64,000 bases of DNA, from NCBI RefSeq assembly GCF_004348445.1, contig NZ_SMKV01000007.1, positions 124,001-188,000 of the forward strand, in the 5' to 3' direction. A program made the position numbers and the translations under genes. This stretch comes from Saccharopolyspora aridisoli (lineage in GTDB: Bacteria > Actinomycetota > Actinomycetes > Mycobacteriales > Pseudonocardiaceae). The notes under the pieces are model-generated. The model did no database searches. It saw only the letters and a program-made list of their open reading frames with translations, and was not told the origin of the DNA. Each line of letters begins with the position of its first letter. Positions within the stretch are counted from its first letter, which is position 1. Positions 7,932 through 20,038 of this stretch are shown in pieces.

Positions 7932-8819
7932 ATGGCTGTCATCGGTTTCATCGGACTCGGCCACATGGGTCGTCCGATGTCGGCGAACCTCGTCAAGGCC
8001 GGCCACGCCGTGCAGGGCTACGACCTCGTCCCGGCCGCCCTGGCCACCGCCGCGGACAACGGTGTGACCACGGTGTCCTCGATCGCGGAGGCGGTCCGCG
8101 GGGCCGACGCGGTGATCACCATGCTGCCCAGCGGCAAGCACCTGCTGGACGCCTACGACGAGGTGCTGCCCAACGCGGCCTCCGGCGCGCTGCTGGTCGA
8201 TTCCTCCACTGTGGACGTCGCTGACGCGCGCGCCGCGCACCAGCGCGCGCAGGAAGCCGGTCTGGGCAGCATCGACGCGCCCGTCTCCGGTGGCACGGCC
8301 GGTGCCGAGGCGGGGACGCTGACGTTCATGGTCGGCGGGTCCGAGGCCGACTTCCAGCGCGCCGAGAGCGTTTTGGAGCCGATGGCGCGCAAGGTGATCC
8401 ACTGCGGTGGGCCCGGCAACGGCCAGGTCACCAAGATGTGCAACAACCTCATCCTGGGCGCTTCGATGATCGCGGTCAGCGAGGCGTTCGTGCTCGGTGA
8501 GCGCCTCGGCCTCTCGCACGAGGCGCTCTACGACGTCGCGGCGGTCTCCACCGGCCAGTGCTGGGCGCTGACGACCAACTGCCCGGTGCCGGACCTGGTG
8601 GAGACCAGCCGCGCGAACCACGACTACGAACCCGGCTTCGCGGCGGCCCTGATGCTCAAGGACCTCAACCTCGCGCTCTCGGCGGCGGAGCAGTCGGGCA
8701 CCGACGCGTCCATCGGCCGCCTCGCCACGGACCTCTACCGCCGCTTCAACGAAGAGGGCGGCGGCGGCCAGGACTTCGGCGCCATCATCAAGTCCATCCG
8801 CGAGCACTCCGGCTCCTGA
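7932..8819 (+). CDS. mmsB: 3-hydroxyisobutyrate dehydrogenase
   Basis: This 295-residue NAD-dependent beta-hydroxyacid dehydrogenase oxidises 3-hydroxyisobutyrate to methylmalonate semialdehyde, the substrate of MmsA encoded at the start of the operon. The N-terminal Rossmann motif GFIGLGHMG, the substrate-binding DAPVSGGTAGAEAGTL, and GNGQVTKMCNN with the catalytic lysine are all present. Length is typical. It is the last gene of the operon; the following sequence turns to minus-strand genes. Confidence 0.95.
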   Translation: MAVIGFIGLGHMGRPMSANLVKAGHAVQGYDLVPAALATAADNGVTTVSSIAEAVRGADAVITMLPSGKHLLDAYDEVLPNAASGALLVDSSTVDVADARAAHQRAQEAGLGSIDAPVSGGTAGAEAGTLTFMVGGSEADFQRAESVLEPMARKVIHCGGPGNGQVTKMCNNLILGASMIAVSEAFVLGERLGLSHEALYDVAAVSTGQCWALTTNCPVPDLVETSRANHDYEPGFAAALMLKDLNLALSAAEQSGTDASIGRLATDLYRRFNEEGGGGQDFGAIIKSIREHSGS

Positions 8820-9107
8820 CGCCGCTCAGCGGGACTCCGTTCAGGCCGTTGATGTCGTAGGACCGCATGAACGTCGGCGGGCGCGCGCCGCTTCGCGTGA
8901 ACGCGCGGCCTCGTTCTCCATCCGCAGCGCGCGGGCGATGTTCGAGGAGAACGTGCCCGGATCGCTGAGCACCTGCAGCGCCTCGGCGTGGCCGTAGGCG
9001 TTGCACACCCGGTCTCGTCGTCGAAGCGCACCGGGAACTCCGGGTGCTGCACAGCGCGTCCAGGACTTGCCGGGGTCGATACCCCACTCCTCGACCGGAC
9101 AGGTCAT
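8820..9107 (-). pseudogene. Cytochrome P450 N-terminal remnant, frameshifted
   Basis: Conceptual translation from an ATG at 9107 gives a P450-like N-terminus, but the reading frame changes at least twice. One frame gives TCPVEEWGIDPGKSW, a second the VLDAL stretch, a third HPEFPVRFDDETG, and then the first frame resumes with NAYGHAEALQVLSDPGTFSS, the typical P450 A-B helix region. The remainder, including the heme-binding cysteine region, is absent because mmsB begins its 3' end here. The ATG overlaps the stop of the DUF4097 gene (ATGA), so the two were once co-translated. It is a clear remnant, though the exact indel positions are uncertain. Confidence 0.68.
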
Positions 9108-9955
9108 CGCACCAACTCCGTTCGTCGAACGGTGACGTCGCCGAAGCCGGTGCGGGCGTGCACCTCGGCGGTCTCGGTGTCGGGATCGGGTTCGTCGGCG
9201 TGGTCCATGTCGTTGTGGACGCGCCCGTGCTTGGCGTCGAGGTCCAGCCACGCGGTGGTACCTGGCCGGATGCCGATGCGAAGGTCGCCGAGCGAGGTCG
9301 CCAGCTGCACCGAGCCGCGCACGATCTCGTCGATGCGGACGCTGCCGTTGGCGGTCCGCGCCTCGACGTCGGACAGCGAGCGCTGCACGGTGATGTCGCC
9401 GTTGGCGGCCTTGAGCCGCAGGGCGCCACCGACCTCACCGATCCGCGTCGCGCCGTTGGAGTTCTTCACCGCGGCGGTGCCGTCGATGCGGTGCAGCTCG
9501 ACCTCCCCGGTCCCGGTGCTCACCTCCGCGTTGCCCGCGATGTGCCGGGCGGTGACGCGCCCACCCGCGGTGTCGGCCTTCAGCGCCCCGGTCTCGTCGA
9601 CGTCGATGCTGCCCATCGCCGTCTTGATCCGGGTGTCGCCGAGCCGGCCTTGGGTCGCGAAGGAGCCGGCACCGGCCTGCCCGTTCAGGCTGGAGCCCGC
9701 GGGCACTTCGACGGTGATCTCGACCGACCCGGGCTTGGCGAGCAGTCCGCGTGATCTCGGACCTTTGACCTGCAGGGTTCCGGCGGCGAAGGAGACGTCG
9801 GTGTTCTCCGCGGTAGTCACGTCGGCCTTGGTCGCCGCGTCCGTGGGCCGGACGTCGACGGTGGTGCGGGCCGCGTCGGTGGCGAGGATCCGCGCGGTGC
9901 CCCACGCGAGTTCGATGGTCGCTGCGATCGGCTCAGGAGTGTCGAATCCAGGCAT
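9104..9955 (-). CDS. DUF4097-family beta-repeat protein
   Basis: The 283-residue protein has the repeating beta-strand pattern of the DUF4097 (putative adhesin) family, with recurring units such as NGDITV, NGSVRIDEI, MGSIDVDE and LGDLRIG. It has no signal peptide or membrane helix, so it is probably cytoplasmic. The ATG at 9955 is preferred over an upstream TTG because GGAGGG is well spaced before it. The ribbon-helix-helix gene lies 74 bases upstream on the same strand, and the pair is a recurring actinobacterial arrangement. The function is unknown; such beta-helices often serve as scaffolds. Confidence 0.82.
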   Translation of the reverse strand: MPGFDTPEPIAATIELAWGTARILATDAARTTVDVRPTDAATKADVTTAENTDVSFAAGTLQVKGPRSRGLLAKPGSVEITVEVPAGSSLNGQAGAGSFATQGRLGDTRIKTAMGSIDVDETGALKADTAGGRVTARHIAGNAEVSTGTGEVELHRIDGTAAVKNSNGATRIGEVGGALRLKAANGDITVQRSLSDVEARTANGSVRIDEIVRGSVQLATSLGDLRIGIRPGTTAWLDLDAKHGRVHNDMDHADEPDPDTETAEVHARTGFGDVTVRRTELVR

Positions 9956-10640: not shown

Positions 10641-10874
10641 GTGTTGGAGTTGCTGGTCGAGTGGTACGACGGCGTCGAGCTGTGGTTGGTGCAGCTCGTC
10701 TATCCGCTTCAGGTCGCCCTGGTGCTCGCAGTCCTGGTGCCGCTGTGCTGGGGGGTGGCGCGAGTCGTCGACCGCGCGGTGGACGGCCTCGGTGCCAAGG
10801 TCACCCGGGGGCGCGGCGCCGAACTGCCGGTCGGCCACGACGGTGAGGCCGGGCGGAGGGGAAAGACGGCGTGA
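10641..10874 (+). CDS. Small single-span membrane protein
   Basis: The 77-residue product has one hydrophobic segment (about residues 15-35, containing VALVLAVLVPLCWGVARVV) followed by a basic, glycine-rich tail. No family is recognised. The stop overlaps the GTG start of the secreted ribonuclease gene (GTGA), so the two are translationally coupled. It may help export or anchor the nuclease or may simply share its transcript. The GTG at 10641 is the most plausible start, giving an N-terminus of VLELLVEWYDG. Confidence 0.6.
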   Translation: MLELLVEWYDGVELWLVQLVYPLQVALVLAVLVPLCWGVARVVDRAVDGLGAKVTRGRGAELPVGHDGEAGRRGKTA

Positions 10875-11284
10875 GCTCGCGCAAGCGCATTTCGTCGGCG
10901 TTGATCGGGCTGGTCGCCCTGGTCGTGCTGGGGTGGTTCGGCGAGGACGTCGTCGCCGATCCACCGAGCACAGAGGTGCCCGGTGCCAGCCAGTCAGGAC
11001 TGCAGGTCGAGCAGCTGTCGAAGCTGCCGCCCGAGGCGGGCAAGACCTACCAGCTGATCGTCAGGGGCGGGCCGTTCCCGTACCCGGGCAAGGACGGCTC
11101 GGTGTTCGGCAACCGCGAAGGTGAGCTGCCCGAGCAGGAGTCCGGCTACTACCACGAGTACACCGTGCCGACCCCGGGCTCTCAGGATCGCGGCGCGCGC
11201 CGACTGGTCACGGGTGGTCAGGACGAGGTGTACTACACAGGTGATCACTACGAGTCGTTCGTTGTTGTGGATGCGGCGGGTTGA
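10871..11284 (+). CDS. Secreted guanyl-specific ribonuclease, RNase Sa type
   Basis: The 137-residue protein has an N-terminal hydrophobic signal (about residues 5-25) and a C-terminal microbial ribonuclease domain of the N1/T1/Sa/barnase superfamily. The segments KLPPEAGKTYQLI, GGPFPYPGKDG, FGNREGELP, GYYHEYTVPTPG, RGARRLVTGG and YYTGDHYESF align with RNase Sa. They include the catalytic Glu, Arg and His. RNase Sa cleaves RNA 3' to guanosine. It has no cysteine pair like that of RNase Sa, so folding may differ in detail. The next gene encodes a barstar-like inhibitor, giving a nuclease-immunity pair. Confidence 0.93.
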   Translation: MSSRKRISSALIGLVALVVLGWFGEDVVADPPSTEVPGASQSGLQVEQLSKLPPEAGKTYQLIVRGGPFPYPGKDGSVFGNREGELPEQESGYYHEYTVPTPGSQDRGARRLVTGGQDEVYYTGDHYESFVVVDAAG

Positions 11285-11334
11285 GTGCCATGTTCGGAAC
11301 GAAACTGGCCAGCAGGTTGCGGAAGGAGCAGCCG

Positions 11335-11697
11335 GTGAGTGATCAGCCGAGCGCCGACATCACGGCTGGCGAGGCCGTCGTGGTAGCCGAGGAACGTGGC
11401 GCGACCGCCCACGTCCTCGACGGTGCCGACCTGACCAGCAAGCGCACCACTCTCGACGGCATCGCCGCCGTCCTCGACTTCCCCGAGTGGGCCGGGCGGA
11501 ACCTGGACTCCCTCTTCGACTGCCTGACCGACCTGTCCTGGCTGCCCGAAGGCGAGCACGTCCTGATCTGGTCCGGGTTCCAGGACCTCGCCGACCACGA
11601 CCCCAAGGCGTTCAACGGCATCAACTCGGTCCTGCGCGACGCGGCGGAACGTCCCATGTGCGGCCGACGCTTCACCGCGGTGCTGACCCGGTCTTGA
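11335..11697 (+). CDS. Barstar-family ribonuclease inhibitor
   Basis: The product (120 residues from the GTG at 11335) belongs to the barstar family of cytoplasmic ribonuclease inhibitors. The conserved core is visible as HVLDGADLTSKRTTLDGIA, then FPEWAGRNLDSLFDCLTDLSWLP, where the conserved Asp and Glu-type positions contact nuclease active sites. It probably protects the cell from the RNase Sa-like enzyme encoded immediately upstream. A perfect GGAAGGAG six bases before 11335 supports that start. An in-frame ATG at 11290 would add 15 residues and is the alternative. Confidence 0.9.
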   Translation: MSDQPSADITAGEAVVVAEERGATAHVLDGADLTSKRTTLDGIAAVLDFPEWAGRNLDSLFDCLTDLSWLPEGEHVLIWSGFQDLADHDPKAFNGINSVLRDAAERPMCGRRFTAVLTRS

Positions 11698-12611: not shown

Positions 12612-14954
12612 TCAGGTGGGTGGGTAGCGGGTGCCCCAGGTGGGTGGGCGGGGACCGAACTCCTGAGCTGCGTCCCGGGTGATCCGGTTGATGACGTCGT
12701 GGAGTTCGAGCTCCGCGGTCCAGCGCTGGGGGATCTTCGCGGCGCCGGTGGTGGCCGCGGTGAGGGCGCCGGCGACGGCTGTCGTGGTGGAGCTGTTGCC
12801 GGAGTGGTTGGCGGCGATCGGCAGAGCGGTGTCGAAGTCGCCGTCGGCTGCCAGCGCCGCGTAGGTGCCGATGGCGAGAGCTTCGGCAGCCGTGCCCGCC
12901 GTGCCGAGTTCGCGTTCCAGCTCGTCCGGGGTCAGGCGGGCGCCGCCGACGAGGTCCTTGGCGGCGGTGAGCCGGCGGGTGACCTCCTCGTGGCCGCTGT
13001 GCGGGGCGAGTTCCGCCAGGGCGCCGGTGACCGCTCCGGCGAGCGGCTCGCCGATCAGCAGCTTGGAGATCATGAATCCGAGCGCACCCGCGCTGAGCAG
13101 GGCGGTGGGGTGGCCGTGGGTGAGCGCGGCGCTGCGCATGCCCAGCGCGAACACCTCCGACGGGTCGTCGGACCACAGGGCCGCCGGTACCGCGCGCATG
13201 ATCGCGCCGCTGCCCGCCGAGTCGCTGGCCGGCTCCTCGGGGGTGCCCATCGGCTGCTGGCCTTTGGCGAAGGCGATCAGCGTGCGCATCATGGTCCGCC
13301 CCGGGTTGCGGGTCTGGAACAGCGCTCGCTGCTGGACCAGCCAGCCGTCCGGTTCCGGCGCCTCGCGGAGGAAATCGCCCGCCGCGCGCGGCCAGCTGAG
13401 GTGCTGGGTGTGCAGCCAGCGCTGGTAGGCGTGCTGCAGGTGCCGGATCGGGTCGTCGGTCTCGCCCGCGCGGCGGGCGACGTTGGCCCGCAGCACGCCC
13501 TCGACCGAGAACAGCAGCAGCTGGGTGTCGCTGCCGAGCCGTCCTGACGGATGCCCGGCGGGCACGTACTCGGTGAGCCCGTCGGCGCCGTGACGCGCCC
13601 GGATCTCCTCCCAGCTGTCGGAGGCGATCGGCATTCCCAGCGCCTCGCCGACCGCGCAGCCCAGCACCGCGCCGAGGAACCGGTCCCGCGAGGCGGCCAG
13701 CCGCGGCACCCCGGTCAGCCCGGTCCGGTAGTCCGACGTCCCGGCAGGGTCCGCGGCCGACGTGGAATCGTCAGCGGGGTAGCGGTCCTCCCACGCGGCG
13801 GACTCGTCGGGTTCGGGGCCGAACTCGGTCGCCGCGTCCCGGCCCAGGCGCTCGATCACGTCGAGGATGGGCAACGCCTCGAGCAGTTCCGCGGGAATCG
13901 CGGTGGGTCCGCGCAGGGCGCCGAGCAGCTGCCCGCACAGCATCGCGGTGCTCGCGGTGTCCCCGTCGTGCTCGGCGGCTGAGGCGATGGCGGCTCCGAA
14001 GTCGTCCTCGCAGGCCAGCGCCACGCGCGCGGCGACCGCGAGCGCACCGAGCCCGCTGCGGTTCATGCCCAGGTGCGCCGGTCCTGGCCGGAGGCCCGCA
14101 GGGCTGAGCACGCCCAGCCGCAGGGCGTCGCCGAGCGCGGTGCGGCCCGACTGCCACCCGGAAATGCCCTGGCGCAGCGCGGTTTCCAGGTCGTGCCCGC
14201 GCAGCAGCCACAGCGTCGTCGTGCCCAGCACGCTGGCCGGGCTGTGCCCGTGCGGATGCCCGTGGGTGAGCGCGGCCAGGTCACCGCCGAGCGCGAACAC
14301 CGCGCCCGGGTCGCTCGACCACAGCGCGGCCAGCGCCCCGAACGGGACGGCGGTGGCCGTGTCCGAGCTGTTGATCGGCTGCTGCCGGGTGCCCTGCGGA
14401 TGCCCGGCGACGACCTTCGCCGCCGAGGTCAGCAATGTCGGCTCATCGGTCGCCGGGTCGTGCAGATCCCGCTCGGCGACCAGGAAACCGCTCGGCCGGG
14501 GTGAGTCGTCGCCGCAGTCCCGCCACGGCACACCCCGGGTGTGCAGCCATCGGCGCAACGCCGCCAGCGCCGCCGAGGTCGGTTCGCCGGAACCCGTCGA
14601 GCGCAGCCGCGTGTGCGCGCGGATCAGCCCTTCCAGCACGAACAGCAGAGCACCGGTGCGCTGGCCGACGCGGCCGAGCGCGGCGAACTCGCCGACCGCG
14701 CCGCCCAGCAGCATGCCGAGCACGCGGGCCGAGGAACCGGGCAGGACACCGGTGCGGTCGACCAGCCCGGTCTCCTGGGCCGCGGACTCCGCATCCGCCG
14801 CGATCCGCTGCTGCAGTTCGGCGGCCCACAGCGGACGGGTCGCGGGGTGGCTCTCCCAGCGCCGCCAGACCGTCAGCAGGCGGCGCTCCACCGGGTCCCG
14901 CCGGCATGCGGCCAGCAGCACGCGTTCGTCCTCGTCCAACCCGCGTTCGTCCAC
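12612..14954 (-). CDS. Double ADP-ribosylglycohydrolase-like protein, active sites degenerate
   Basis: The 780-residue protein has two ADP-ribosylglycohydrolase (DraG/ARH) folds, at about residues 75-370 and 422-760. Fold landmarks (VLGMLLGGAVGE, ALWSSDP, ALTHGHP, LHTRG; then FLGAVLGCAVGEALG, RWLHTQ, ALWSDDP, ALTHGHP, NHSG) are kept. The metal ligands are not. The expected TDD is GQR in the first domain and GSD (474-476) in the second. The C-terminal DxD is DTA (332-334) and NSS (720-722). Hydrolysis is therefore doubtful, and ADP-ribose binding or scaffolding is more likely. The GTG start lies 6 bases after the stop of the larger gene upstream, so they form an operon. The two genes arose by domain duplication. 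Confidence 0.85.
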   Translation of the reverse strand: MDERGLDEDERVLLAACRRDPVERRLLTVWRRWESHPATRPLWAAELQQRIAADAESAAQETGLVDRTGVLPGSSARVLGMLLGGAVGEFAALGRVGQRTGALLFVLEGLIRAHTRLRSTGSGEPTSAALAALRRWLHTRGVPWRDCGDDSPRPSGFLVAERDLHDPATDEPTLLTSAAKVVAGHPQGTRQQPINSSDTATAVPFGALAALWSSDPGAVFALGGDLAALTHGHPHGHSPASVLGTTTLWLLRGHDLETALRQGISGWQSGRTALGDALRLGVLSPAGLRPGPAHLGMNRSGLGALAVAARVALACEDDFGAAIASAAEHDGDTASTAMLCGQLLGALRGPTAIPAELLEALPILDVIERLGRDAATEFGPEPDESAAWEDRYPADDSTSAADPAGTSDYRTGLTGVPRLAASRDRFLGAVLGCAVGEALGMPIASDSWEEIRARHGADGLTEYVPAGHPSGRLGSDTQLLLFSVEGVLRANVARRAGETDDPIRHLQHAYQRWLHTQHLSWPRAAGDFLREAPEPDGWLVQQRALFQTRNPGRTMMRTLIAFAKGQQPMGTPEEPASDSAGSGAIMRAVPAALWSDDPSEVFALGMRSAALTHGHPTALLSAGALGFMISKLLIGEPLAGAVTGALAELAPHSGHEEVTRRLTAAKDLVGGARLTPDELERELGTAGTAAEALAIGTYAALAADGDFDTALPIAANHSGNSSTTTAVAGALTAATTGAAKIPQRWTAELELHDVINRITRDAAQEFGPRPPTWGTRYPPT

Positions 14955-14960
14955 TACGGC

Positions 14961-17900
14961 TCATCCAGCGCTGTTGGCGGCAGGCTGGGGCTCGGGCTCC
15001 TCGACGTCGGAGACGCCCACCTCGGCCAGCAGCCGATCCAGGACATCCCGCAGTTCCAGCCCGTCGACCCACTCCTCGGGCAGCTCCTCGACGCCGCGCG
15101 CGGTGCCCATCAGGGCGCCGCAGATCGCCGCTGTCGCCGCGCTGTTGCCCGCGTGAGTTGCCGCTAGCGAGACCGCGTCGGCCACCGAGTTCGGGTGCGA
15201 CAGCGCCGCGGCGACCGCGATGGCCAGTGCTTCCGGTGCGTGCCAGCCCAGGCCCAGCGACTCCAGCACCGTCGGCGACACGGGACCGCTCGTGGCGATC
15301 TCCACCGCGATGCGCAGGCCGCGCGCGGTGTTCTCGGCGCCCTCCATCCGGTCGAGTTCGGCCAGCACCGACTGCACGGCCTCGATCAGCGTCCGGCCGC
15401 CGTCCAACCCGCACACCAGGCCCGCCAGCGCGGCCGCGGGCAGGTAACCGTCCGGGTGGCCGTGGGTGAGCACAGCGATACCGGCGCCCAGCGCAATCGC
15501 ATCGGCAAGATCGGTGGTTTCGAAACCGACCACGGCACCGCGCACGGTGGCGGCGGCGTTGCGGGCGTCGTTCGGCGGGTTGCCCGGGGTCGGGTTCTCA
15601 CCTCGGTCGCCCCAGCGGGCCACCGCGGTCAGCGTCGCCTCGTCCGGGAACCGCTGCGCGCGAAGGGGTTCCACGTCGCTGAGCTTGCCGCCGCCGTCCG
15701 GGGTCGGCCGACCGCCCTGGGTGCGCACCCAGTCCCGCAGCGAGGCCCGCACCAGCGACGGTCGGTCCGGGTTCTCCCGGCTCAGCGCGGCCAGCACGAA
15801 CGCGGTCTGCTGCGTGTAGGCGGTGGCGGCACCGAAGCGGCCGAACAGCTCCGCGTGCGCGCGCACGCCGTCGGGGTTCTCGCGCAGCGTGGTGAGCAGG
15901 TCGCTGAACATCCAGGGCGCGCCGAGGGCGTCACCGGCGGCGCTGCCGAGCACGCAGCCGGCGAGCCGGTCGCGGCGGCTGGGCCGGACCTGCTCCTCCT
16001 CAACGGGCTCGTCCTCGACCTCGACCTCGGCGTCCTCGGCGGCGGACTCGCCGGTGAGCTGCGCCGCACGCTCCTCGCCGAACGCCTCCACCAAGAGCTT
16101 GTGCAGGCCCTGGGTGAGGTCGGCGTTGCCGTTGCCGTCGTCGTTGTCGCGGAACTTGCGCCACGCCAGCAGCAACCGCAGTTCCTCGTCGGACAACCCG
16201 TCGTCGGAGTCGTCCTTGTCGGCGGGGGCTTCCTCGGCCGCGGCGGCCGATGCCTCCGCCGCATCCTGCGTGGAGGCTTCCGGCTCGCCGGGATCCGGCC
16301 TGGAGGCTTCCGGCTCGGTCGCGTCGGGCTCTTCCTCGGCCGGAGCCACATCCCCGAGCTCCGCCGGATGCTCCTCGGGCACCGGGTAGCGCGCCGCCCA
16401 CAGCTGACCGGATGGCGAGTTGGGGCCGAACGCCAGGTCCGCGTCGGCGGCCAGGCACTCCAGCGCCTCGCGCAGTTCCAGCTTGTCTCGCCAGTGCTGC
16501 GGGATCGCGGAGGCGGTGTGCGCCGCGCCCATGATGCAGCCGCAGATCGACGCGGTGGAGTCGCTGGCGCCTGAGTGGTTGGCGGCCAGCACCAACGCCT
16601 CCGGGAACGACTCCGGGTGGGTCAGCGCCGCGCACACAGCGATCGCCAGCACCTGGGCGCCGGAGTGCGCGGTGCCGAAGGCATCCTCGATCTGCTCCGG
16701 AGTCGGCGTCCCGGTCGCGGCCAGCTCGACGGCCTTGCGCAGCGCGGTGATCGTCTCCTCGTGACCGTCCCATTCGGACAGTTCGAGGAGCGTGCGGTCC
16801 ACCGCCTGCGGCAGCGTGCGGTCGGCCAGCAGCTGGTGCACCAGCAGGGCGAGCGAACCGGCGGGCAGGTAGGCGCTGGCATGGCCGTGGGTGAGCAGAG
16901 CGGTGCGGGCGCCGGTGCGGAACGCCTCGGACGGGTCGTCCGACCACAGGGCCGCCGGAGCCGCGCGCATGACCGCGCCCCAGTCAGCGGCGTCGTTCGG
17001 CGGCTTGTCCAGCGAACCCGGCTCGTTGCCGCCCGCGAAACCGCGCAACGCCTGCATCGTGGTCATGCCGCGGACGCGGCGGTCGAACAGCTCGCGCTGC
17101 TCGACCAGCCAGCCGTCCGGCTCGTGCGCGCTGGCCCCGGCCTCGGCCCACTCGACGCCCTGGGTGTGCAGCCAGCGCTGGTACGCCTGCTGCACGTAGG
17201 TCGCCGGGTCGGCGTACCCGTTGTCGCAGCGCGCTGTCGAGGCGCGGATGAGTCCTTCGGCGGTGAACGCGGTCAGCTGGGTCTCGTCGCTGATCGACCC
17301 GGCCGGGTGGTGCCCGTCGACGTAGTCGATGAGCCCGGAGTCGCCGTACTTCGCGCGGATCTCGGCCAGCGAGTCGGCCTCGATGGGGAGGCCGAGCGCG
17401 TCACCGGCGGCGGCGCCCAGCAGCATGCCGAGGATCCGCTGCGCGCGCAGGTCTTCCGGGGAGGACGGCGGTGGCGGTGCGGCCGATTCCGGTGGGGAGA
17501 CGACGGATTCGACCTGCGGGGCGGCGACCTCCGGCCCGGGCTCCACCTCGGGCGCGGTGTCCTCCGCCTCGTCGGTCTCCGCTAACGTCCCCGGGCTCTC
17601 CGCAGGGCTTTCCGCGCGGGGCAGCGACGAGGCGAAGTCCAGGTCGGAGACGTCACCGGAAGCCGGGTAGCGCTTGGCCCACGCGTCACCGGCGGGCGGT
17701 GTGCCCCGGAACTCCAGCAGCCCGTCCTTGGCCAGCGACTCCACGACTTCGCGCTGCCGCAGGTCGCGCAGCCACACCCCGGGCAGTGCGGCGGCCCCGT
17801 TGCGGGCGCCGACGATGTTTCCGCAGATCGCGGCCGTCGAGTCGCTGTCGCCGGAGTGGTTGATCGCGAGCATCAACGCGTCGGCGGTGGTGTCGGTGCA

Positions 17901-19589
17901 CAGCGCCGCGCACACCGCGATGGCCAGCGCCTCGTGCCCGGCCCAGCCGCTGCCGAGGGCGTCCTTGAGCTGCTCGGGAGTGGGTACCCCCTTCTCGGCG
18001 AGCTCTTCGGCGGCCTGCAGCGCGCGGTCGGTGTCCTCGTGATCGCGGTATGCGGCCAGCAGTTCGCGGGCCTGCTTCAGCGCCGAAGGGAGCGACTCCT
18101 CGCGCAGCAGCCGGTGCACCAGCACCGCCAGCACGCCGGCGGGCAGGTAGGCGTTGGGCTGGGAGTGGGTCAGCGCGGCGGTGGCGGCGGCGAGCTCGAA
18201 GACCGAGCGCGGGTCGTCCGACCACAGCGCGACCGGGGCCGCGCGGACCACGCCGCCGCAGTCGTCGGAGTCGTTGATCGGCCGCTCGAACGTGCCGGGA
18301 GCTCCCACCGAAGCGAACTCGCGGAGCGCGCTGATGGAACCGCTGTTCGGCGAGCGCACGGCGAACAGGTCGGACTGCTCGATCAGCCAGCCGTTGGCCT
18401 TGGGGTGCTTGGCCGCGAACGGTCCGGCCGACCGCATCCACGCGTGGCCCTGGGTGTGCAGCCAGCGCTGGTAAGCCAGCTGGATTGCGGGCAGCGGACC
18501 GGCCGAGTCGCCGCTGCGGGCCAGGCAGTGCGCGCGGATCAGCCCTTCCAGGGTGAACAGCGCCAGCTGGGTGTCGTCGGTGAACTCGCCCGGGTGCTCG
18601 CCGCTGCGGTCGTACTCGGTGACGCCGTCCTCGCCGAAGCGGCTGCGGATCTGGTCGATCGGGTAGAACTCCACCGGCGCGCCCAGCGCGTCACCGATCG
18701 CCCCGGCCAGCATCGAGCCCAGGAACCGGCGGCCGAACTCGGTCTCGGCGGGGTCCGCCGGAACCGCCGGCGGCTGGGGGACGATCGGAGTCGCGGGACC
18801 GACCGGAATCGCGGGAGCCGCGGTGGGCACCGGCGTTCCGGCGGGCGGCGACACCGGTGCGCCCGCGGGCGGTGCCATCGGCGTGCCTGCGGGCGGCGCG
18901 ACCGGTCCGGGTGCGGGAACCGGAGGCATCGGCGTGCCCGCGGGTGGCGACATCGCGACGCCCACCGGCTTCGGCGGTACCGACGCGGCGATCTTGACCA
19001 GGTCCTCACCCGGCATCCGGGCCTTGACCGGACTCGTGGGGTTGATCTGCAGGTCGATGCCGGAGAGCTGGTTGGTCGCCAGCTGCCGTCCGGTCATGCG
19101 CTGCCAGGTCGTCCAGTTCGGCGGCAGGAAGCCGTCGGAGGTGAACACCTGCAGCTGACGGCGGCCCGACTCGTGCTCCATCGTGAACAGCCCGCTGCCC
19201 TGCGGCTGGGCGAACAGGATCAGCTCGGAGTCGAGCATCGCGGCGAGCAGGGAGTGGCCCTGCGCGTAACCGGTGGTGGTCAGCTGCAGCGCGCGCTCGA
19301 CGTCGTTGGTCGGCGCGGGCAGCCGCAGCGCCACGGGCGAGGGCCGGTAATTCGGGTTGGGGGAGAAGTCGTCGGTGATCTCGCCTTTTTCGTCGACGCG
19401 GTAACCGCCGATGAAACCCCACGGCGGCACTTCGGCGTTGGGGTCGGTGAAGATCGGGTCGACCACGTACAGCCAGGTGTTGGGCTGCTTCTTGGCCTGT
19501 TCCCGCATAGCCGGTGTGATGACCGGTCGACTCGGCTGCTGCGTGTTCATCTCGCCCTGTTGTCCCTGACTCCCTGTCCAGCCTTGCAT
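14961..19589 (-). CDS. Three-domain ADP-ribosylglycohydrolase with type VII secretion-associated N-terminus
   Basis: The 1542-residue protein begins with a domain (about 20-190; NTWLYVVDP, PPWGFIGGYRVDE, NYRPSP, TTGYAQG) resembling actinobacterial type VII secretion-associated/SseB-like proteins. A Pro-Ala linker with PPAGTP repeats (about 205-280) follows. Three ADP-ribosylglycohydrolase folds come next, at about 288-640, 718-1065 and 1207-1530, joined by acidic linkers. The first fold keeps TDDTQ (336-340) and GDSDS (580-584), the metal-binding set needed to remove ADP-ribose. The second has SDE (767-769) and GASDS (1007-1011). The third has TQQ (1259-1261) and GNSAA (1481-1485). No signal peptide is seen. 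An ATG at 19550 is an alternative start. Catalysis by domain 1 is an inference from motifs, and the substrate is unknown. Confidence 0.85.
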   Translation of the reverse strand: MQGWTGSQGQQGEMNTQQPSRPVITPAMREQAKKQPNTWLYVVDPIFTDPNAEVPPWGFIGGYRVDEKGEITDDFSPNPNYRPSPVALRLPAPTNDVERALQLTTTGYAQGHSLLAAMLDSELILFAQPQGSGLFTMEHESGRRQLQVFTSDGFLPPNWTTWQRMTGRQLATNQLSGIDLQINPTSPVKARMPGEDLVKIAASVPPKPVGVAMSPPAGTPMPPVPAPGPVAPPAGTPMAPPAGAPVSPPAGTPVPTAAPAIPVGPATPIVPQPPAVPADPAETEFGRRFLGSMLAGAIGDALGAPVEFYPIDQIRSRFGEDGVTEYDRSGEHPGEFTDDTQLALFTLEGLIRAHCLARSGDSAGPLPAIQLAYQRWLHTQGHAWMRSAGPFAAKHPKANGWLIEQSDLFAVRSPNSGSISALREFASVGAPGTFERPINDSDDCGGVVRAAPVALWSDDPRSVFELAAATAALTHSQPNAYLPAGVLAVLVHRLLREESLPSALKQARELLAAYRDHEDTDRALQAAEELAEKGVPTPEQLKDALGSGWAGHEALAIAVCAALCTDTTADALMLAINHSGDSDSTAAICGNIVGARNGAAALPGVWLRDLRQREVVESLAKDGLLEFRGTPPAGDAWAKRYPASGDVSDLDFASSLPRAESPAESPGTLAETDEAEDTAPEVEPGPEVAAPQVESVVSPPESAAPPPPSSPEDLRAQRILGMLLGAAAGDALGLPIEADSLAEIRAKYGDSGLIDYVDGHHPAGSISDETQLTAFTAEGLIRASTARCDNGYADPATYVQQAYQRWLHTQGVEWAEAGASAHEPDGWLVEQRELFDRRVRGMTTMQALRGFAGGNEPGSLDKPPNDAADWGAVMRAAPAALWSDDPSEAFRTGARTALLTHGHASAYLPAGSLALLVHQLLADRTLPQAVDRTLLELSEWDGHEETITALRKAVELAATGTPTPEQIEDAFGTAHSGAQVLAIAVCAALTHPESFPEALVLAANHSGASDSTASICGCIMGAAHTASAIPQHWRDKLELREALECLAADADLAFGPNSPSGQLWAARYPVPEEHPAELGDVAPAEEEPDATEPEASRPDPGEPEASTQDAAEASAAAAEEAPADKDDSDDGLSDEELRLLLAWRKFRDNDDGNGNADLTQGLHKLLVEAFGEERAAQLTGESAAEDAEVEVEDEPVEEEQVRPSRRDRLAGCVLGSAAGDALGAPWMFSDLLTTLRENPDGVRAHAELFGRFGAATAYTQQTAFVLAALSRENPDRPSLVRASLRDWVRTQGGRPTPDGGGKLSDVEPLRAQRFPDEATLTAVARWGDRGENPTPGNPPNDARNAAATVRGAVVGFETTDLADAIALGAGIAVLTHGHPDGYLPAAALAGLVCGLDGGRTLIEAVQSVLAELDRMEGAENTARGLRIAVEIATSGPVSPTVLESLGLGWHAPEALAIAVAAALSHPNSVADAVSLAATHAGNSAATAAICGALMGTARGVEELPEEWVDGLELRDVLDRLLAEVGVSDVEEPEPQPAANSAG

Positions 19590-19813: not shown

Positions 19814-20038
19814 TCAGTCGGACAGCGCCGCGGCCATCAAACAGCCCAAGCACGGCATCCCGGCGGGCCCGTCCAGAGCCTCGGCCTGGCCAGGGGCGAT
19901 GCTGAAACCGCAGTAGGCGTGCAAGGTCTCAGGCAGCGGGCCACCGTTCGGGAGCGGGAAGAAGTGGCAGGACTTGTCCTGCTCGCTGCGCGCGAACTCA
20001 GGGCGCACCCGCGCGATCAGGTGCGGGATCGACGTCAT
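19814..20038 (-). CDS. Small cysteine-containing hypothetical protein
   Basis: The 74-residue product starts with ATG at 20038 and contains several cysteines and histidines (DKSCHFFPL, HAYCGF, MPCLGCLMAA). A CxxC pair near the C-terminus suggests metal binding, possibly a small zinc site. No family was recognised with certainty. It lies alone, downstream of the sulfate-assimilation operon on the same strand but 129 bases away, with a hairpin in the gap. Amino-acid composition looks like a real protein rather than a GC shadow. Confidence 0.6.
   Translation of the reverse strand: MTSIPHLIARVRPEFARSEQDKSCHFFPLPNGGPLPETLHAYCGFSIAPGQAEALDGPAGMPCLGCLMAAALSD

Follow-up and report, generated by a model that had tools for sequence, protein, structure and literature searches.

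Two adjacent genes of Saccharopolyspora aridisoli encode five tandem ADP-ribosylglycohydrolase (ARH) domains, and in this species only the first of these has its catalytic residues complete, raising the question of what function such an array performs. The genes, termed A and B, are located in a window of 64,000 nucleotides, meaning the whole stretch of DNA that was analyzed. The pair is probably an orphan polyimmunity operon against arginine ADP-ribosyltransferase (ART) toxins, free of a toxin and with a present protective function.

Organization and active sites of the array

Gene B lies downstream of gene A with a gap of 6 bp and both are on the minus strand, in agreement with the preliminary description of this DNA. 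The features, in positions of the window, are:

14961..19550 (-), gene A, 1529 aa: NF033532 domain, Pro-rich linker and ARH domains A1, A2 and A3 (ORF, gene call, profiles)
18993..19478 (-), type VII secretion system (T7SS)-associated domain of A, NF033532, SseB-like (profile match)
17709..18728 (-), ARH domain A1: complete site with GDxxGxxxE, T-D-D and D-S-D-S
16428..17438 (-), ARH domain A2: S-D-E / A-S-D, first Asp of DxD missing in S. aridisoli
15012..15968 (-), ARH domain A3: T-A-Y / N-S-A, catalytic Glu gone, degenerate in all species
12612..14954 (-), gene B, 780 aa: two degenerate ARH domains (ORF, PF03747)
13821..14708 (-), ARH domain B1: G-Q-R / D-T-A, catalytic-Glu loop deleted
12657..13682 (-), ARH domain B2: G-S-D / N-S-S, GD changed to GE, catalytic Glu gone

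The 1542 aa first given for the large protein correspond to an existing ORF from an alternative ATG at 19589; however, the ATG at 19550 is the likely start, as it is common to the orthologues. The claim of five tandem ARH folds, three in A and two in B, is borne out by Pfam PF03747 (ADP_ribosyl_GH), which matches A in three stretches (E 6e-177) and B in two (E 1.7e-80), over the cut-off in both cases. The fold was modeled for B, whose AlphaFold2 model (pLDDT 80.8) has two helical domains of the all-α ARH fold, and Foldseek matches this model to human ARH3 (TMt 0.75), MJ1187 (TMt 0.80) and DraG 2woc (TMt 0.75); the model of A residues 1-618 has a pLDDT of 53. The N-terminus of A had been left unassigned, but it holds the NCBIfam domain NF033532, ‘type VII secretion system-associated protein’, with a score of 139 bits (cut-off 85, E 1.5e-40), and also matches Pfam PF07179 SseB weakly (E 8e-4).

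Active-site motifs were read after all domains of 27 loci had been aligned to the profile. In S. aridisoli, the binuclear metal ligands and catalytic Glu are complete in A1, partly gone in A2 and gone in A3, B1 and B2; the catalytic-Glu loop GDxxGxxxE is present in A1 and A2, has its E substituted in A3 and B2, and is absent in B1. The DxD motifs reported earlier (DSD, ASD, NSA, DTA and NSS) are the same in this alignment, as are the TDD-triad readings for A1, A2, B1 and B2, but the ‘TQQ’ given for A3 is three residues off from the aligned T-A-Y. Across the loci, A1 retains TDD in 27/27 and DSD in 26/27, the catalytic Glu of S. spinosa A1 is replaced by Lys, and the full catalytic set is found in 25/27. 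A2 has S-D-D/E with DSD, and therewith all metal ligands, in 20/27 loci; the first Asp of DxD is missing in the six loci of the S. aridisoli clade, and more has been lost from A2 of locus L086. The sites of A3, B1 and B2 are incomplete in every species.

The losses in A3, B1 and B2 are old and common to all species, whereas that in A2 is recent and independent, in the S. aridisoli clade, which does not fit the ‘stepwise’ decay that had been proposed. A single intact eraser accompanied by pseudoenzyme domains is a valid description of S. aridisoli as far as its motifs show, but because the ligands of A2 are complete in 20 of the 27 loci, the family as a whole is better described as having one or two intact and three ancient pseudo-ARHs. 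In each full-length A the full set is found in A1, in A2 or in both; given two defects in A1 and seven in A2, this pattern is not significant. The reduced two-domain A of L089 has no domain with the full set. As structure matches include crystal structures titled ARH3-D77A and ARH3-D314A with bound ADP-ribose, one lost metal ligand need not end binding.

Conservation and selection at the locus

The A/B pair occupies a single conserved position, cysN-cbiX-A-B-echA, in Saccharopolyspora as well as in six or more related genus groups. A search for the same two-gene order in other Pseudonocardiaceae, suggested in the preliminary description, found gene A in 28/28 loci examined and gene B in 25/28, the window included; three loci lack B, and one has a reduced A. 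In 16 named loci (Saccharopolyspora, Halopolyspora and Halosaccharopolyspora), among them L078 with a contig that begins just upstream of A, this gene sits between cbiX, which follows cysH-cysD-cysN, and echA, and it has the same position in eleven more non-duplicate family genomes. Two unrelated genes separate A from echA in L073 and L087, and there is no echA within the stretch fetched for L083 and L090. The gap between A and B is 3-10 bp in most loci with B. The best named relative is S. endophytica, at 93-95% identity for both proteins. An A-type gene is present in at least 7 of the 46 genera represented by 120 sampled family genomes, and full-length B in 10 of 299 genomes of the order. 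A recent horizontal island was rejected in view of the fixed synteny and native GC.

Values of dN/dS for A3, B1 and B2 are mostly 0.1-0.3, similar to those of echA, cbiX and hemN, with NF033532 being the most constrained part (about 0.00-0.18) and the linkers the least. In permutations, conservation within each degenerate domain is higher at the pocket motifs than elsewhere (A3 0/5000, B2 25/5000, B1 48/5000). The low dN/dS and conserved pocket motifs imply that A3, B1 and B2 are not drifting pseudogenes, and with dN/dS in this range in nearly all comparisons they support the view that the degenerate domains keep a function.

ARH relatives in toxin loci

A tree of 96 ARH domains, made by a quick method with SH-aLRT support, places A1, A2, B1 and B2 in one clade each, and A3 in one clade if the reduced L089 copy is counted in; with one clade per array position, the five-domain order is older than these genera. 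A1 and A2 cluster, at moderate support (88-92 SH-aLRT), with toxin-locus ARHs that are intact, A3 and B1 are near the 461- and 471-aa ARHs of rpsL loci, and B2 is weakly placed among degenerate toxin-locus ARHs. It is very probable that A/B share ancestry with the toxin-locus ARHs.

Another ARH array of S. aridisoli is located on contig C13 (locus L013), upstream of rpsL, and comprises ARH proteins of 379, 1028, 461, 837 and 1262 aa. On one side it borders a protein whose C-terminus is an ART-like tip (NF041404, E 1.6e-11), on the other a TNT-domain protein. The Pfam ART families have no match in the S. aridisoli genome, as the C13 tip is caught only by NF041404 and by similarity to the tip of the L104 toxin. 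Since S. aridisoli also has these tandem ARHs next to an ART-tipped protein, and tandem NF033532-ARH proteins occur in toxin loci of the family, the earlier remark that no such system is described goes too far. Within the C13 array, an inverted ARH fragment of 151 aa (8671-9126, minus strand) is apparently a remnant. Most of the toxin-side half of the array (L013 2000-13300) has a GC of about 0.64-0.68, lower than the 0.72-0.74 of the rpsL-proximal half, suggesting later acquisition or exchange.

The syntenic rpsL locus of G012 encodes a 1984-aa protein that begins with WXG100_2 and ends in an arginine-ART region (PF01129, E 9e-9); three ARH genes come after it, and NF033532 is present in one of these. 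In L104, WXG-like and YbaB-like genes precede a toxin whose ART tip matches PF03496 and PF01129 over the cut-off. Nine toxins of family loci have the R, S and E-x-E residues in common, and E-x-E is the mark of arginine specificity in the ART family. By profile search, six toxins of other genera with RelA/SpoT or papain tips also proved to contain an ART module, and in one such genus (L112) the immunity protein of a toxin locus combines Imm35, NF033532 and ARH. The association of ARH with ART is strong yet not exclusive, as in L114 and L115 an intact ARH lies alongside a TNT tip without ART. An rpsL-locus ARH protein also persists without an ART toxin in L108 and in six genomes that belong to a single genus (L105-L107, L109-L111), a state that parallels the orphan A/B.

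Several other features of these loci were observed. Large toxins with ART and RelA/SpoT modules occur in L112, L113, L116, L118, L122 and L123, with papain-like glutamine-deamidase modules as well in L112, L113, L118 and L122, where scanned; these toxins face immunity genes, such as that for Imm35-NF033532-ARH in L112, a matched arrangement of several warheads and several shields. TNT (NADase-type) proteins repeatedly border ARH arrays (L013 17159-18562; L097 2519-4162; L112 7181-9097 and 14237-15652) and are without an obvious secretion domain. Proteins of 1345-1355 aa with an N-terminal NF033532-type domain are found beside WXG-type genes in L100 (9185-13252) and L101 (8860-12897), and in L100 this domain is followed by RHS/YD-like repeats.

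Proposed function and relation to known systems

As ARH relatives occur beside secreted ART toxins, A/B are most likely inherited immunity rather than a new signaling system. The pair would derive from immunity genes of T7SS-delivered arginine-ART toxins and would now be vertically fixed in a Saccharopolyspora-centered part of the Pseudonocardiaceae. A1, and A2 where intact, would hydrolyze ADP-ribosyl-arginine made by incoming or self-made ART toxins, while A3, B1 and B2 would be non-hydrolyzing and may bind ADP-ribosylated targets or the ART domains of toxins, by analogy to the sequestration and hydrolysis of Tri1; NF033532 would tie A to T7SS substrates. This orphan-immunity reading is supported by the ART-tipped proteins beside ARH genes in C13, G012 and L104, the Imm35-NF033532-ARH protein of L112, the nine toxins with R, S and E-x-E, the domain tree, the dN/dS and pocket conservation of the dead domains, and the literature on Imm-ARG, polyimmunity and Tri1. 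It is weakened by the finding that a toxin adjoins A/B in no genome examined, by a fixed and slow-evolving locus that differs from typical arms-race immunity arrays, by the TNT rather than ART tips in L114 and L115, and by the moderate support of the tree. A more specific form, put forward only tentatively, is a domesticated, clade-wide standing defense against arginine ADP-ribosylation: a toxin-free machine of two proteins in which the three dead ARHs would read ADP-ribosyl-arginine or act as decoys for toxins, bringing targets to the one or two erasers attached to them, with NF033532 as the tie to the T7SS.

A housekeeping role was also considered, in which A/B would act like DraG to reverse the ADP-ribosylation made by an endogenous transferase and thereby control a core process, for example sulfur assimilation or T7SS activity, with the dead domains as regulatory subunits. 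Although unlikely, it is retained mainly because the synteny with cysH-cysD-cysN-cbiX and echA is strict over several genera and evolution is slow, the dN/dS being as low as in housekeeping genes. The best NCBIfam ARH match is indeed the DraG-like TIGR02662, but at 133 bits it is far from the cut-off of 337, and no transferase gene is recognized in the window neighborhood. Furthermore, with an A-type gene in at least 7 of 46 sampled genera the cys pathway is independent of A, and close paralogues of the pair are located in toxin loci.

An accessory or chaperone of the T7SS, with NF033532 and the ARH folds forming a platform that binds substrates in export and hydrolysis being incidental, is quite improbable: NF033532 is the most conserved part of A and is widespread in the family (92/120 genomes, often as short stand-alone proteins), but the catalytic set of A1 is complete in 25/27 loci, T7SS genes are not near A/B, and an immunity protein has NF033532 joined to Imm35. 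The least likely candidate is a relic in which duplicated ARH domains, devoid of their former sites, survive with no function left. Catalytic residues absent from three domains in every species, the three loci without B and the one reduced A could be taken for decay; however, A3, B1 and B2 are under purifying selection, their degenerate motifs are conserved, and the two-gene order is unbroken in 25/28 loci. Orphan immunity is the preferred reading of A/B.

Comparison with described systems shows that each ingredient is already known singly, namely ARH immunity (Imm-ARG, Tri1), tandem immunity or polyimmunity, and inactive ARHs. The available part of Zhang et al. 2012 (PMC3482391) describes Imm-ARG (Imm-ADP-RGHD) as an enzymatic immunity strictly tied to R-S-E ART toxins, records ARH fused to Imm35, and defines polyimmunity proteins as multi-domain and encoded in operons mostly without toxins. 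A/B share with Imm-ARG the PF03747 ARH domain, proposed there as immunity to R-S-E ART toxins, and would belong to the polyimmunity class: A1 appears catalytically complete from its motifs, and the three plus two ARH domains with NF033532 form an operon without a toxin, their status as immunity domains being drawn from paralogues. In contrast, an adjacent R-S-E ART toxin is found for the paralogous arrays only, not at A/B. The taxa given for Imm-ARG in that part of the paper are acidobacteria, beta/gamma-proteobacteria and firmicutes without actinobacteria, whereas A/B are actinobacterial, and a tandem ARH array, conserved degenerate ARHs or a fixed core-locus copy were not found there for Imm-ARG.

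Tri1 (NF041672), the immunity protein to Tre1, is an ARH-fold hydrolase protecting against an arginine-ART toxin, as A is proposed to be, and it protects by sequestration and hydrolysis (PMC7827354); it is single-domain and toxin-linked, unlike the multi-domain A/B without an adjacent toxin. DraG shares both the ARH fold and its metal motifs, and the B model matches it, but it is a single-domain nitrogenase regulator. Membership in either family was rejected, with A and B scoring 110.8 and 47.1 bits against the Tri1 equivalog cut-off of 490 (NF041672), and 133.3 and 62.6 bits against that of DraG, 337 (TIGR02662). ARH2 (ADPRHL1), also of the ARH family, is suspected to lack catalytic activity (PMC7050489) and is therefore a precedent for pseudo-ARHs, although it is vertebrate and single-domain. 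The tandem T7SS immunity genes EsaG and TsaI of firmicutes (PMC9484751) are likewise strings of non-identical immunity paralogues; their proteins are unrelated to A/B, and their arrays recombine where the A/B operon is fixed.

The statement that no such system is described must therefore be narrowed: ARH immunity to R-S-E ARTs and polyimmunity were published in 2012 (PMC3482391), while the open-access literature searched contained no description of a fixed, clade-wide operon of five ARHs that includes three anciently dead domains and starts with a T7SS-associated one. If the orphan-immunity reading is true, A/B would represent an enzymatic immunity that has separated from its toxin and is now fixed in the chromosome, would provide dead ARH domains in a natural series, retained for a non-catalytic job, and would extend ARH immunity to the actinobacterial T7SS. 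The complete A1 and the conserved pseudo-ARHs form a testable pair for the role of a dead ADP-ribose eraser.

Two further observations concern the surroundings of A/B. An ORF at 19814-20038 (-), of 74-77 aa and without a Pfam match, lies upstream of A in most Saccharopolyspora loci at 64-97% identity. On the other side of the pair, a barnase-type ribonuclease gene at 10871-11284 (+) (PF00545, E 3e-25) is followed by a barstar gene at 11290-11697 (+) (PF01337, E 7e-23), and homologues of both are present beyond echA in most A/B loci, thus placing two systems of toxin-immunity type at one locus.
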